DNA of 64,000 nt, taken from contig JAGWHF010000013.1 in NCBI GenBank assembly GCA_028866895.1, positions 1 to 64,000 on the forward strand, in the 5' to 3' direction. The stretch comes from Nitrososphaerota archaeon (lineage in GTDB: Archaea > Thermoproteota > Nitrososphaeria > Nitrososphaerales > Nitrosopumilaceae). Shown here one piece after another: positions 38,653 to 59,476 of the stretch. The translations under genes were made by a program, and so were the position numbers. The first letter of the stretch is position 1. Each line of letters starts with the position of its first letter. The notes below the pieces were generated by a model. The model saw only the letters and a program-made list of their open reading frames with translations. It did not search any database and was not told where the DNA came from.

Positions 38653-38672
38653 TCCCCCTATCCTAGGGGGGA
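38653..38672. promoter_or_regulatory. C-tract/G-tract palindrome, candidate CsoR/RcnR-family operator
   Basis: The arms TCCCCCTA and TAGGGGGGA are separated by TCC. CsoR and RcnR repressors are known to bind inverted repeats built of G/C tracts flanked by A/T bases. It lies about 50 bases before the NicO-like gene and just upstream of a TATA-like stretch (ATATACTTTTTAA, 38675-38687), and a CsoR/RcnR-family gene follows at 39455. Binding here would block TBP/TFB. No second copy was noticed in the window. Confidence 0.55.
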
Positions 38673-38721
38673 GGATATACTTTTTAACAACTAGGAGAGA
38701 CTGCCATTAGAACTAGAACCA

Positions 38722-39402
38722 ATGATAAATCTGATTCCATATCTAGTTGGAGCAGGCATAGTCGGAATACTGCACATGTCTGCACCTGATCATTGGGCCA
38801 CGCTCTGCCTGCTTGCCAAAAACAAGCAATGGGCTCCAAAGAAACTGTTTGGAATATCGCTTGCAACTGCAATAGGTCACGTTGCTTTGTCTATTGTCAT
38901 GGGCCTGGCAGTGGTGGCTGTAGGCTTGGTTATCTCTCACCTGGTCTCGTATTATCTTGATACTGCAATAGGGATAATCATGATTGGGGCCGGTCTGATC
39001 TTTGGTATAAAACCGCTTGTCACAAAACCAAGTCAGCATCACCATGGTGGGATTCATCATGCCCTTGGAAGGAATGAATATCATGAGAATGATGGAAAAG
39101 GGAAGAAAGCTCTAGGCAATCTTACGGGTGGTTTAGGATATTTTGTGGTCCTAGGGGCCGCCCTGTCGCCTGATCCTACCATCATACCGGTTTATCTCTC
39201 TGCTATATCGGCCGGATTTTATTTTGCTGTGGAACTGTCAGCAGTTTTTGCGGCGGCGTCCATCTTGACGCTTATTCTTTTCGTGCAACTTGGAACATTA
39301 GGACTCGGGAAGGTTTTAGAGAAGATACCGGAAAGATATGCCGATTCAATGGTAGGTTTTGTTATTGCAGCCATAGGGGTATATTTACTTGTTACAAGAT
39401 AG
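38722..39402 (+). CDS. NicO/RcnA-like metal transporter
   Basis: This membrane protein of 226 residues has about six transmembrane helices and the NicO-type first-helix signature GILHMSAPDHWATL (about residues 15-28), with a cytosolic His-rich loop (QHHHGGIHHALG, about 105-116). These features match nickel/cobalt efflux proteins of the RcnA/NicO group. The palindrome at 38653 and the CsoR/RcnR-type gene downstream suggest metal-responsive control. The metal cannot be told from sequence; Ni, Co or another divalent ion is possible. Confidence 0.82.
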   Translation: MINLIPYLVGAGIVGILHMSAPDHWATLCLLAKNKQWAPKKLFGISLATAIGHVALSIVMGLAVVAVGLVISHLVSYYLDTAIGIIMIGAGLIFGIKPLVTKPSQHHHGGIHHALGRNEYHENDGKGKKALGNLTGGLGYFVVLGAALSPDPTIIPVYLSAISAGFYFAVELSAVFAAASILTLILFVQLGTLGLGKVLEKIPERYADSMVGFVIAAIGVYLLVTR

Positions 39403-39454
39403 GGTTGGACAAGCCATCCAATTAGATAAATATCTCAGTTAGGATGAAAATATT

Positions 39455-39715
39455 GTGACTCATCACAAACTCCCGGAAGTGAAGAAAAGGCTGGCAAGGA
39501 TAGAAGGTCATGTCAAAGGCATTGAAAAGATGATTGATGAGGGGAAGGGATATCCTGAAATTGTTCAACAGATCACGGCAGTCCGAGCAGCACTGGATGC
39601 GGCGCTAGGAGTAATAGTTGAGGATCTGGCGGAACATGTCAGCAAATGCACAACCAATGACAAAGGCAAGAAGGCAGTCACGGAGCTCAGAGATACAGTA
39701 TCGCTGATTCTCTGA
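39455..39715 (+). CDS. CsoR/RcnR/FrmR-family metal-responsive repressor
   Basis: An 86-residue all-helical tetrameric repressor of the DUF156 family (KRLARIEGHVKGIEKMI, then QQITAVRAALDAAL, then HVSKC). The first-helix Cys conserved in CsoR, RcnR and FrmR is replaced by Tyr33 (GYPEIVQQI), while His3, His4, His61 and Cys65 remain. The N-terminal His pair recalls RcnR, which senses Ni and Co with the N-terminus, His3, Cys35 and His64. The metal site must therefore be altered. The start is a GTG. It lies between two metal transporter genes. Confidence 0.85.
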   Translation: MTHHKLPEVKKRLARIEGHVKGIEKMIDEGKGYPEIVQQITAVRAALDAALGVIVEDLAEHVSKCTTNDKGKKAVTELRDTVSLIL

Positions 39716-39735: not shown

Positions 39736-40635
39736 ATGCCTGTAACAAGCGGAAATCAATCACCGAGGACGGTATCATCACTCAAGGTCGTATTGGTTCT
39801 AACTTCCGCATATTTCGTGGCAGAAATTATCTGAAGCCTGCTAACGGGAAGCCTTGCCCTTATTGCAGACGCGGGCCATATGCTAACTGACATCGGGGGG
39901 CTGACACTCTCACTTCTTGCAATCAGCTTTACACAGAGAAAGCCCACCCCGCAGAGGACCTATGGTTTTTACCGTATGGAAATTCTGGCATCGCTTGCAA
40001 ATAGCGTTGCTCTGATAATATTGTCGATTTACATATTCTATGAGGGCTATAGGCACCTCTTCGAACCGCCGGAGATCCAAAGCATGCCGATGACAATAAT
40101 TGGAGTTGTAGGGCTGGCAGTAAACCTGTTTAGCATAAAGACGCTTGGTGTCCACTCACACGCACATGACGAGCAAGAACCTCATGAGGAGGAAAACCTC
40201 AACATCCGGGGGGCAAGACTGGAGGTCCTGAGCGATACAATCGGTGCGATAGGCGTCATCGTGACAGGAGTTGTAATGTTTACGACCAAATTTTATCTTG
40301 CTGATGCGATCTTCAGCATTGGACTTGCCATATTCATCGTTCCAAGGACCTGGACGCTTCTTAGGAAGTCAATCAACATACTGATGGAGGGGGTTCCGGT
40401 TGGGATTGGTTATGAAGATGTGAAAAATGCGATACTGGAGGTAAGGGGAGTTACGGGACTGTTTGACTTGCATATATGGAGCATAACAACTGGAATGAAT
40501 GCCCCCTCAGCACATGTGGTAATAATGGACCAGTCCAAAGGGCAGGCGATTTTAAAGGAAATTACGGGCATATTGGACAACAAATTCAGGATTACTCGTT
40601 CCACAATCCAGATTGAGACTTATCACGAACAGTAA
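39736..40635 (+). pseudogene. CDF-family cation efflux transporter with in-frame stop
   Basis: Read from ATG 39736, the frame contains a TGA at 39832-39834 exactly where family members have a Gly (AEII-G-SLLTGSLAL), and is otherwise open to 40635. Without the stop it would be 299 residues with six transmembrane helices, the TM2 metal motif DAGHMLTD, the TM5 motif EVLSD and a His-rich loop (HSHAHDEQEPHE), then a cytosolic C-terminal domain. CDF proteins export Zn, Co or other divalent ions. A re-start at ATG 39880 would lack TM1 and the first half of TM2. Either a recent nonsense mutation or a sequencing error explains it. Confidence 0.85.
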
Positions 40636-57763: not shown

Positions 57764-59476
57764 ATGGTTAATAGTATTGATATTGATCTTCTGATAGTTG
57801 GTTCCGGTCTTGCAGGATTGAGGGCTGCCATCCAAGCTGCCAAGGTTGCCCCGCACATGAAGATCGCCGTTGTCTCAAAGCTTCAAGTCATGCGATCACA
57901 TTCGGTCTCAGCAGAGGGAGGTACCGCGGCAGTCCTTTATCCAGAAGACGGAGATACCTTAGAGTCGCACATCTACGACACTGTAAAAGGAAGTGACTTT
58001 CTCGGAGACCAAGATGTCATTGAGAAGCTCGTGGCCGATATGCCCTCTGAAGTTTACCAGCTAGAGCATTGGGGCATGCCGTGGTCGCGAAGGGAGGATG
58101 GAAGGATTGGCCAGCGAAACTTTGGCGGGTACAGCTTCCCCCGTGCCACATTTGCACAAGACAAGGTGGGTTTCTATGAGATGCAGACCCTTTACGATAC
58201 ATGCCAAAAGTTCGATAACATAATGTTCTACAACGAATGGTTTGTGACATCAATAATACATGACAATCTGCGATTCTGCGGGGTGACTGCAATCGAGCTC
58301 TCCTCGGGAACCTTTTACACCTTCAAGGCAAAGGCACTTATCATTGCAACAGGCGGGGCAGGGAGGGTGTACAGCTTCTCTACCTACGCCTTGGCCTCTA
58401 CTCCTGACGGTTTGGACATGGCCTACCGGGCTGGCATGGCGCTAAAAGACATGGAGTTTGTCCAGTTTCATCCCACCGGTATCCTGCCCTCCGGGATACT
58501 GATAACCGAGGGGGCCAGAGGCGAGGGAGGGTATCTTCTCAACAGTAACGGGGAGCGTTTTATGAAAAAATATGCCCCCACTAAACTGGAACTGGCCTCA
58601 AGGGACGTGGTCTCCCGCGCAATGATCACCGAGATCAATGAGGGGAGGGGATTCAAGCATGATACTGGCGTTGACTGCATGAAGCTTGACCTGAGGCATC
58701 TGGGAAAGGAACTGATAATAAAAAAACTCCCGGCCATTAGGGAGATATCGCTAAAATTCTCAGGAATCGACCCTGCAGACGAGCCAATTGACGTAAGGCC
58801 GGTATGTCATTACATGATGGGAGGGATACATACCAACATTGACGGAGCAACCGAGATTCAAGGGATATGGGCTGCAGGAGAGGCTGCGTGCAACAGCGTA
58901 CATGGGGCCAACAGGCTGGGTGCAAACTCTACTGCTGAGTGCCTCGTTTGGGGAAAGATCACAGGGGAGCTTGCCGCAAAATACATCATGGACAACAAAC
59001 CCACTCCGCCATTTCCGCTACATCTTGTAGCAAACGAAGAAAAGAGGATCTACGACGGTATATTTAGGGGGACGGGGGGCGCAAACCCGTACGAAGTAAG
59101 GCAGGATCTTACCGAAATCATGAACAGCAAGGCATATGTTTACAGAAACGAGAATGACTTGGTGGAGGGCCTCAAGCTTGTCAGGAGCCTAAGGCTCAAG
59201 ACATGGAAGCACGTGGACGACAAGGCCAAAGAGTATAACACCAACTTTACCAATGTTATGGAGCTTGATTCTATGTTTCGTGTAGCCGAGGTGATCCTGA
59301 TGGGAGCTATCTGGCGAAAGGAATCTAGAGGCGCGCATGCTAGGACGGATTATCCAGATCGGGATGACAAGAACTTTTTGGCCCATACCCTTGTCTATTA
59401 CGACTCGAAGGAGCCTGTCATCAAAACGCATCCAGTCACTATCACTAAATACAAGCCGGTGGAGAGAAAATACTGA
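57764..59476 (+). CDS. sdhA: Succinate dehydrogenase flavoprotein subunit
   Basis: A 570-residue FAD subunit of complex II, which oxidises succinate to fumarate. The Rossmann motif GSGLAG lies at residues 13-18 and the His that binds FAD covalently is H46 (RSHSVSAEGGTA). The catalytic QFHPTGI segment (about 234), the capping domain and the conserved ANRLGANS near residue 388 are present, and the C-terminal domain is complete. It is the first gene of the A-C-D-B operon; TATA-like CATATTTATC lies about 33 bases before the ATG. Confidence 0.95.
   Translation: MVNSIDIDLLIVGSGLAGLRAAIQAAKVAPHMKIAVVSKLQVMRSHSVSAEGGTAAVLYPEDGDTLESHIYDTVKGSDFLGDQDVIEKLVADMPSEVYQLEHWGMPWSRREDGRIGQRNFGGYSFPRATFAQDKVGFYEMQTLYDTCQKFDNIMFYNEWFVTSIIHDNLRFCGVTAIELSSGTFYTFKAKALIIATGGAGRVYSFSTYALASTPDGLDMAYRAGMALKDMEFVQFHPTGILPSGILITEGARGEGGYLLNSNGERFMKKYAPTKLELASRDVVSRAMITEINEGRGFKHDTGVDCMKLDLRHLGKELIIKKLPAIREISLKFSGIDPADEPIDVRPVCHYMMGGIHTNIDGATEIQGIWAAGEAACNSVHGANRLGANSTAECLVWGKITGELAAKYIMDNKPTPPFPLHLVANEEKRIYDGIFRGTGGANPYEVRQDLTEIMNSKAYVYRNENDLVEGLKLVRSLRLKTWKHVDDKAKEYNTNFTNVMELDSMFRVAEVILMGAIWRKESRGAHARTDYPDRDDKNFLAHTLVYYDSKEPVIKTHPVTITKYKPVERKY

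Follow-up and report, generated by a model that had tools for sequence, protein, structure and literature searches.

A predicted CsoR/RcnR-type operator and a PF02583 regulator with replaced canonical ligands in an ammonia-oxidising archaeon

Gene cluster and candidate operator

The window, i.e., the entire 64-kb stretch of DNA considered here, belongs to a 2.26-Mb assembly (95 contigs) of an ammonia-oxidising archaeon of the Nitrosotalea type. It features a cluster consisting, in this order, of a NicO-like gene, a PF02583 regulator gene and a gene for a cation diffusion facilitator (CDF) transporter, with the following elements:

38653..38671, forward strand: palindrome TCCCCCTA-TCC-TAGGGGGG of a preliminary description, overlapping the operator, with a C5 left arm that lacks conservation
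38659..38677, forward strand: candidate operator TATCCTAGGGGGGAGGATA, near-invariant in 29 NicO-like promoters
38680..38687, forward strand: TATA-like stretch CTTTTTAA, starting after a 2-nt gap 3' of the operator
38722..39402, forward strand: open reading frame for a NicO-like membrane protein of 226 aa, a candidate metal exporter
39455..39715, forward strand: predicted CsoR/RcnR-family repressor (PF02583), 86 aa, GTG start
39736..40635, forward strand: CDF transporter (PF01545 and PF16916), third gene of the cluster, broken by a stop

The NicO-like protein carries the motifs HMSAPDH (HX4DH), GHVxxS and LSPD as well as a His-rich loop, with invariant motifs in a 14-sequence alignment including His18, Asp23 and His24 of HMSAPDH in all 14 rows. 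HX4DH is presumably the NiCoT signature. The name of the gene rests on this motif because the Pfam NicO model (PF03824) gave no match to it up to an E value of 10, the match of this model in the same genome being located on contig C7. The structure model of the protein (mean pLDDT 56.9) was too poor for a reading of the fold. In the window, the reading frame of the CDF gene contains a TGA stop at codon 33 (39832-39834); in the relatives L094, L100 and L101, the gene is intact.

The same assembly harbors a diverged second NicO-like/regulator/CDF cluster with its own operator on contig C87 (genome G000, locus L002). PF02583 genes occur in this genome only within these two clusters. The second CDF copy has a TAA at codon 97 (L002:1758-1760). 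Between the two CDF copies, 106 codons differ synonymously and 41 in the amino acid, so that the stops in both look either recent or like sequence errors. Of the 86 regulator codons, 30 differ synonymously between the copies and only 2 in the amino acid, which argues for purifying selection on the regulator. A recent duplication was rejected as the origin of the C87 copy due to its strong divergence at synonymous sites; the second cluster is either an old paralogue or stems from an admixed strain.

The preliminary description had proposed a palindrome just before the TATA-like stretch of the NicO-like gene as a CsoR/RcnR-like operator. The location was given correctly, and the sequence TCCCCCTATCCTAGGGGGG is present at 38653-38671. 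Nevertheless, its arms of 8 and 9 bases are imperfect: perfect pairing extends over 7 bp at 38654-38670 (CCCCCTA-TCC-TAGGGGG), and the tracts are unequal with 5 C and 6 G. The quoted sequence is not among the two perfect 8-3-8 palindromes of the window, with 1.0 expected per shuffle; allowing up to 3 mismatches yields 5 matches against 1.44 expected, a number reached in 3 of 100 shuffles. As a bare palindrome, the quoted sequence is thus unremarkable and within chance. What is conserved is an element six bases further to the right, TATCC-TAGGGGGGA-GGATA at 38659-38677. TATCC-N9-GGATA was found in all 29 NicO-like promoters examined, in which every fetched locus was counted once, with 9 of the 19 positions invariant, and the T-run 2-4 bases past the operator is invariant at two positions, with conservation of 97% or more at the following two. 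This conservation of the shifted element places it beyond chance. CCC precedes TATCC in 14/29 of these promoters and CCCCC in 1/29, namely only in the window, and the quoted palindrome was accordingly rejected as the operator for want of a conserved left arm. The preliminary description had named absence of the palindrome upstream of orthologous genes as a refutation; an operator does recur there, in the form of the shifted element.

In the window, this element reads TATCCT-AGGGGGG-AGGATA: two inverted arms, TATCCT and AGGATA, enclose 7 bases that include a G6 tract. The type-1 operators of the family are defined as having a single G/C tract (3-8) between inverted repeats with a spacing of 6-9 bp (PMC3902906). 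With its G6 tract and a spacing of 7, the predicted site at 38659-38677 fits this type. The earlier suggestion of a CsoR/RcnR-like operator before the NicO-like gene is supported for the shifted element and not for the exact palindrome.

Within 37 Nitrosotalea genomes, the exact pattern TATCCNNGGNGGNNGGATA occurs at 20 sites in 19 genomes, and the reversed control pattern at none. Assigned by position, with five loci also inspected, 18 of the sites lie before a NicO-like gene (in G133, the contig ends inside this gene) and two before an ABC transporter (G361 and G380). Exact sites are absent from 10 of the 12 Nitrosotalea genomes without a detected NicO-like gene, the exceptions being G133 and G380. 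In the genome of the window itself, up to one mismatch gives three sites: the two NicO-like promoters and one within a succinate-dehydrogenase-like open reading frame at 58480. Up to two mismatches give 13 matches, as many as for the reversed control, and the search was therefore restricted to one mismatch at most; a reading of the operator as a ubiquitous chance motif was discarded.

The ABC transporter behind the operator in the two genomes consists of an ATPase and a permease of the binding-protein-dependent type (L188/L196 and L176/L197). At one of the two loci, a Pfam NicO permease lies about 3.3 kb away.

Regulator fold and replaced ligand positions

The regulator matches the PF02583 profile with 70 bits against a cut-off of 22.8 (E 2.3e-19) and does not reach the cut-off of any NCBIfam equivalog. 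A structure search (Foldseek) with its model, a monomer predicted without alignment at a mean pLDDT of 82, returned family members at all ranks from 1 to 18 (best 5fmn, E 3.6e-4), and a VIA Z of 10.2 was obtained for the fold, with unrelated helical chains reaching about 9. InrS, CsoR, CstR and FrmR are the solved relatives closest by sequence and fold. Profile and model place the regulator, which is of a bacterial type, in PF02583 and give it a predicted CsoR fold. The DNA-binding RLxR (Arg12-Arg15) is kept, with Arg12 invariant in 18 rows and Arg15 present in 61/67.

In the reviews consulted, CsoR-family sensors are characterized by a Cys-containing ligand fingerprint. In an ungapped alignment, residues 33/58/62 of the regulator are Tyr/Leu/Val where Cys-type relatives such as Bathycorpusculum L162 feature Cys/His/Cys. 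Likewise, the structural alignment with CsoRGz (6ahx) extends ungapped over 60/60 residues at an offset of 13 and places Cys46/His71/Cys75 onto the same three positions. The fingerprint positions X, Y and Z, which are Cys/His/Cys in CsoR/InrS-type sensors, are therefore occupied by Tyr33, Leu58 and Val62, so that all three canonical ligands are lost.

The preliminary description had noticed Tyr33 in place of the Cys ligand, which both alignments bear out, and had regarded His3, His4, His61 and Cys65 as retained ligands. All four residues are there, but His61 and Cys65 do not occupy CsoR ligand positions, which are those of Leu58 and Val62. Tyr33 and His61 are 28 residues apart, Cys36 and His61 of CsoR 25, and the shared numbers are thus coincidental. 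Reading His61/Cys65 as the CsoR ligands would need a 3-residue gap to InrS (phmmer), which was rejected because helix 2 is unbroken over residues 33-65 in the model and both 6ahx and the Cys-type archaeal relatives align without gaps. Cys65 occurs only in the two copies of this genome and in the relative L094. The site is hence even more unusual than had been assumed, and the metal may, as also suggested there, be a different one. Overall, the proposal of a CsoR/RcnR-like operator and a regulator without the Cys ligand was sustained, and the bases and residues named as important were not the right ones.

Escherichia coli RcnR responds to Ni(II)/Co(II) at the operator TACT-G6-N-AGTA (PMC3902906, PMC7055735) and coordinates the metal by its N-terminus, His3, Cys35, Glu63 and His64 (PMC7055735). 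The window resembles this system in the PF02583 family, a type-1 operator with G6 between short inverted repeats, a putative Ni/Co exporter as target and His3. The remaining RcnR ligands are replaced: by alignment at an offset of 2, Tyr33 is found at the position of Cys35, His61 at that of Glu63 and Val62 at that of His64. Further differences are the arms TATCCT/AGGATA, the archaeal promoter and a score of 34.8 bits against the NCBIfam RcnR cut-off of 138. InrS of Synechocystis, a Ni(II) sensor with the ligands His21/Cys53/His78/Cys82 (PMC7055735), is the closest of the solved structures in both sequence and fold. It controls Ni efflux and also import genes, which is comparable to the second, ABC-transporter target found here, but only its N-terminal His ligand has a counterpart in the window regulator. 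The Cu(I) sensor CsoR (Cys36/His61/Cys65 in Mycobacterium tuberculosis) shares fold, RLxR and a G-tract operator, whereas its ligands are all replaced here and the operator is single-tract, not type 2.

Tyr-type clade, operator arms and partner ATPases

The alignment of the Tyr33 column in homologues, a check suggested in the preliminary description, revealed Tyr33 together with Leu58 in 67/67 distinct rows. Asp48 (66/67), Asp57 (65/67) and His19 (64/67) are conserved as well, and the candidate ligands are uneven: His4 is present in 53/67 rows, His3 in 38/67 and His61 in 33/67. Position 61 is Gly in the Nitrosotenuis rows, and deeper lineages feature Asp or Glu at 61 and Cys at 62. A degraded copy in G058 (L026/L057) with Asn at position 33 is outside the 67 rows. 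In a tree, the 67 Tyr rows and 13 Cys rows are split by one branch with support 100/99, a tree built from 87 columns only and with a program warning that long branches meet at this split. From these sequences, Tyr33 and Leu58 appear to mark an archaeal clade. Together with the conserved operator, the replaced residues point to a different mode of signal sensing in this entire branch.

Members of the Tyr type belong to Nitrososphaerota, soil Bathyarchaeota and Thermoplasmatota. A profile search of 349 genomes of the phylum found the family in 17. Nine of these fall into the order of the window, with all intact copies of the Tyr type, and eight into one Bathycorpusculum-like genus, all of the Cys type; weak profile matches (G345, G370, G243, G294, a second one in G208, and G380) are outside this residue typing. 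An additional tblastn-type scan used one peptide pattern with Tyr and one without and considered the best 80 of 131 matches. Its ratio of Tyr to Cys is biased because of these patterns and this choice, and the profile searches are unbiased.

The operator was followed in a wider sample, 79 loci taken from named genomes, which comprises 70 Tyr-type and 9 Cys-type regulators. Promoter regions were scanned for TATCC-N9-GGATA, allowing a single mismatch in the arms and requiring a core rich in G or C. This 19-base form occurs in 37/70 Tyr-type loci, compared with at most 1 for each of 29 permuted-arm controls; in a stricter promoter region, it is found in 35/70 and for all controls in 0. A 24-base form, TATCC-N14-GGATA, is present in 13/70 Tyr-type and 6/9 Cys-type loci, and 41/70 Tyr-type loci carry either form. 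At these thresholds, 29/70 Tyr-type loci show neither form, several of them with contig ends close upstream; others, e.g., in Nitrosocosmicus, display imperfect variants by eye that were excluded from the counts. Since loci of both types carry them, the TATCC/GGATA arms look older than the Tyr-type/Cys-type split. The site is located upstream of the TATA-like run in NicO-like promoters, and 3' of a TATATA-like stretch, before or touching the start codon, in ATPase-first and regulator-first loci. Both positions would be compatible with repression by occlusion.

According to the cluster analysis, P-type ATPases, NicO-like genes, CDF and EamA transporters are the neighbors of the regulator. In Nitrosocosmicus, the Tyr-type regulator is divergent to an EamA transporter (L124, L127, L128 and L131), and palindromes resembling TATCCTAT...ATAGGATA lie between the two in L124, L128 and L131. 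A recurrent neighbor of about 200 aa (L103, L104, L106 and L095), for which a Pfam match was not found, combines a Cys-rich N-terminus (CSCxxCKCxxDxxCxxCxxGxCCC) with a membrane-like remainder. Long open reading frames in GC-rich loci, including one neighbor-gene cluster, were disregarded as probable shadow frames.

The partner ATPases match heavy-metal models. Before DKTGT, all 16 Tyr-type partners read AGACG and the 8 adjacent Cys-type partners ACPCA, i.e., the GAC motif is present in 16/16 versus 0/8, with four fragments without DKTGT not scored. The second ATPase in L168 has SPC. GAC is not known as a CPx-type motif. As the changes in sensor and ATPase track the same Tyr/Cys split, they are not independent events; at the level of the predicted proteins, they show that the Cys sites of sensor and putative exporter changed together. 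ATPases with GAC lie beside the Tyr-type regulators of L094, L105, L118, L121-L123, L130, L134, L138, L140, L146, L150 and L157-L160. The Cys-type relatives of Bathycorpusculum and Bacillota (L162-L172, L198-L205; 40-50% identity range) resemble the Tyr type in the arrangement of regulator followed by P-type ATPase and in the arms TATCC...GGATA, and differ in their intact Cys/His/Cys and the CPC of the partner ATPase.

Possible signal and significance

The explanation that we regard as best, and as rather probable, is that of a metal-efflux cluster whose apo-repressor sits on the operator and is released by metal at a sensing site other than that of CsoR. The regulator would then most likely be a metal-efflux repressor with a thiolate-free or thiolate-poor site, perhaps for Ni/Co. 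Family membership and the placement of the site lead us to infer the following course. The apo-repressor would bind the 19-bp TATCC-N9-GGATA operator, which would cover the BRE position abutting the TATA-like stretch, and would thereby keep TFB/TBP off the promoter. The repressor would be released, and export thus permitted, by an inducer, for which a divalent metal that the cluster exports is the likeliest candidate. A metal, if sensed, might be bound via the N-terminal amine, His3 and His4 (the N-terminal position of RcnR and InrS), Tyr33, and His61 at the RcnR Glu63 position. We regard Ni(II)/Co(II) as the most plausible inducer because of the HX4DH motif and His-rich loop of the NicO-like partner, InrS as the closest solved relative and the type-1 operator. 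None of these points is strong, since the Pfam NicO model has no match and the partners of this type of regulator in other lineages are ATPases and EamA transporters. The inducer may instead be Zn, Mn, Fe or a signal other than a metal.

A loss of metal sensing, with Tyr33 packing on Leu58, the old site closed and the protein acting as a constitutive or non-metal repressor (pH, redox-independent, small molecule), appears unlikely to us, although the two exchanges, Tyr for Cys and Leu for His, go together in 67/67 rows as would be expected of a packed pair. It would also agree with the His61-Glu81-Tyr35 allosteric network of CsoR (PMC7055735), which is without its His here, and with the precedent of a family member that is not released by metals under reducing conditions (PMC10318464). 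The neighborhood argues against it: metal transporters (NicO-like, CDF, heavy-metal P-type ATPases) are constant neighbors across loci of Nitrososphaerota, Bathyarchaeota and Thermoplasmatota. Less credible still is a site shifted by one helical turn, at which, in line with the residues listed in the preliminary description, Cu(I), Zn(II) or Ni(II) would be sensed by His61/Cys65 together with His3/His4. All four residues are present in this species, and the HxxxC one turn on in the same helix could conceivably face the same pocket. Still, Cys65 is confined to the window, the C87 copy and L094, and His61 is missing from about half of the clade and replaced by Gly in Nitrosotenuis, while operator and operon type persist.

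Finally, the palindrome might belong to a promoter or terminator and have nothing to do with the regulator, as it touches the TATA-like stretch. This reading is highly improbable given that the same arms occur beside NicO-like, ATPase, regulator and ABC-transporter genes in regulator-bearing genomes, sometimes before and sometimes after the TATA-like stretch, and that the exact site is mostly absent from Nitrosotalea genomes in which the NicO-like gene was not detected. Returning to the metal-responsive repressor, a more far-reaching version is put forward tentatively, at somewhat less than even confidence: the clade may have swapped the thiolate metal site for a Cys-free Tyr33/Leu58 sensor and kept the ancestral G-tract operator, with the ATPases changing from CPC to GAC in step, which would result in an O/N-ligand sensor-exporter pair for a cation outside the known CsoR-family systems.

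To our knowledge, little metal-responsive regulation is known in ammonia-oxidising archaea. Text matches to 'csor' in the papers on these organisms that were checked were author names (Csorba, Csordas), and CsoR was not found in the accessible part of PMC13003922. The literature searched, most subscription journals being outside its scope, yielded neither a description of a CsoR-family protein from archaea whose Cys position is taken by Tyr nor one of a P1B ATPase with GAC. The family itself is already known; new is the clade-wide exchange of the CsoR metal site along with a conserved operator. Ammonia-oxidising archaea thereby gain a predicted operator, paired with an unusual P-type ATPase site. 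Moreover, a clade with fixed Tyr and Leu, a kept operator and exporter neighbors offers a natural test of how the CsoR fold shifts its specificity.
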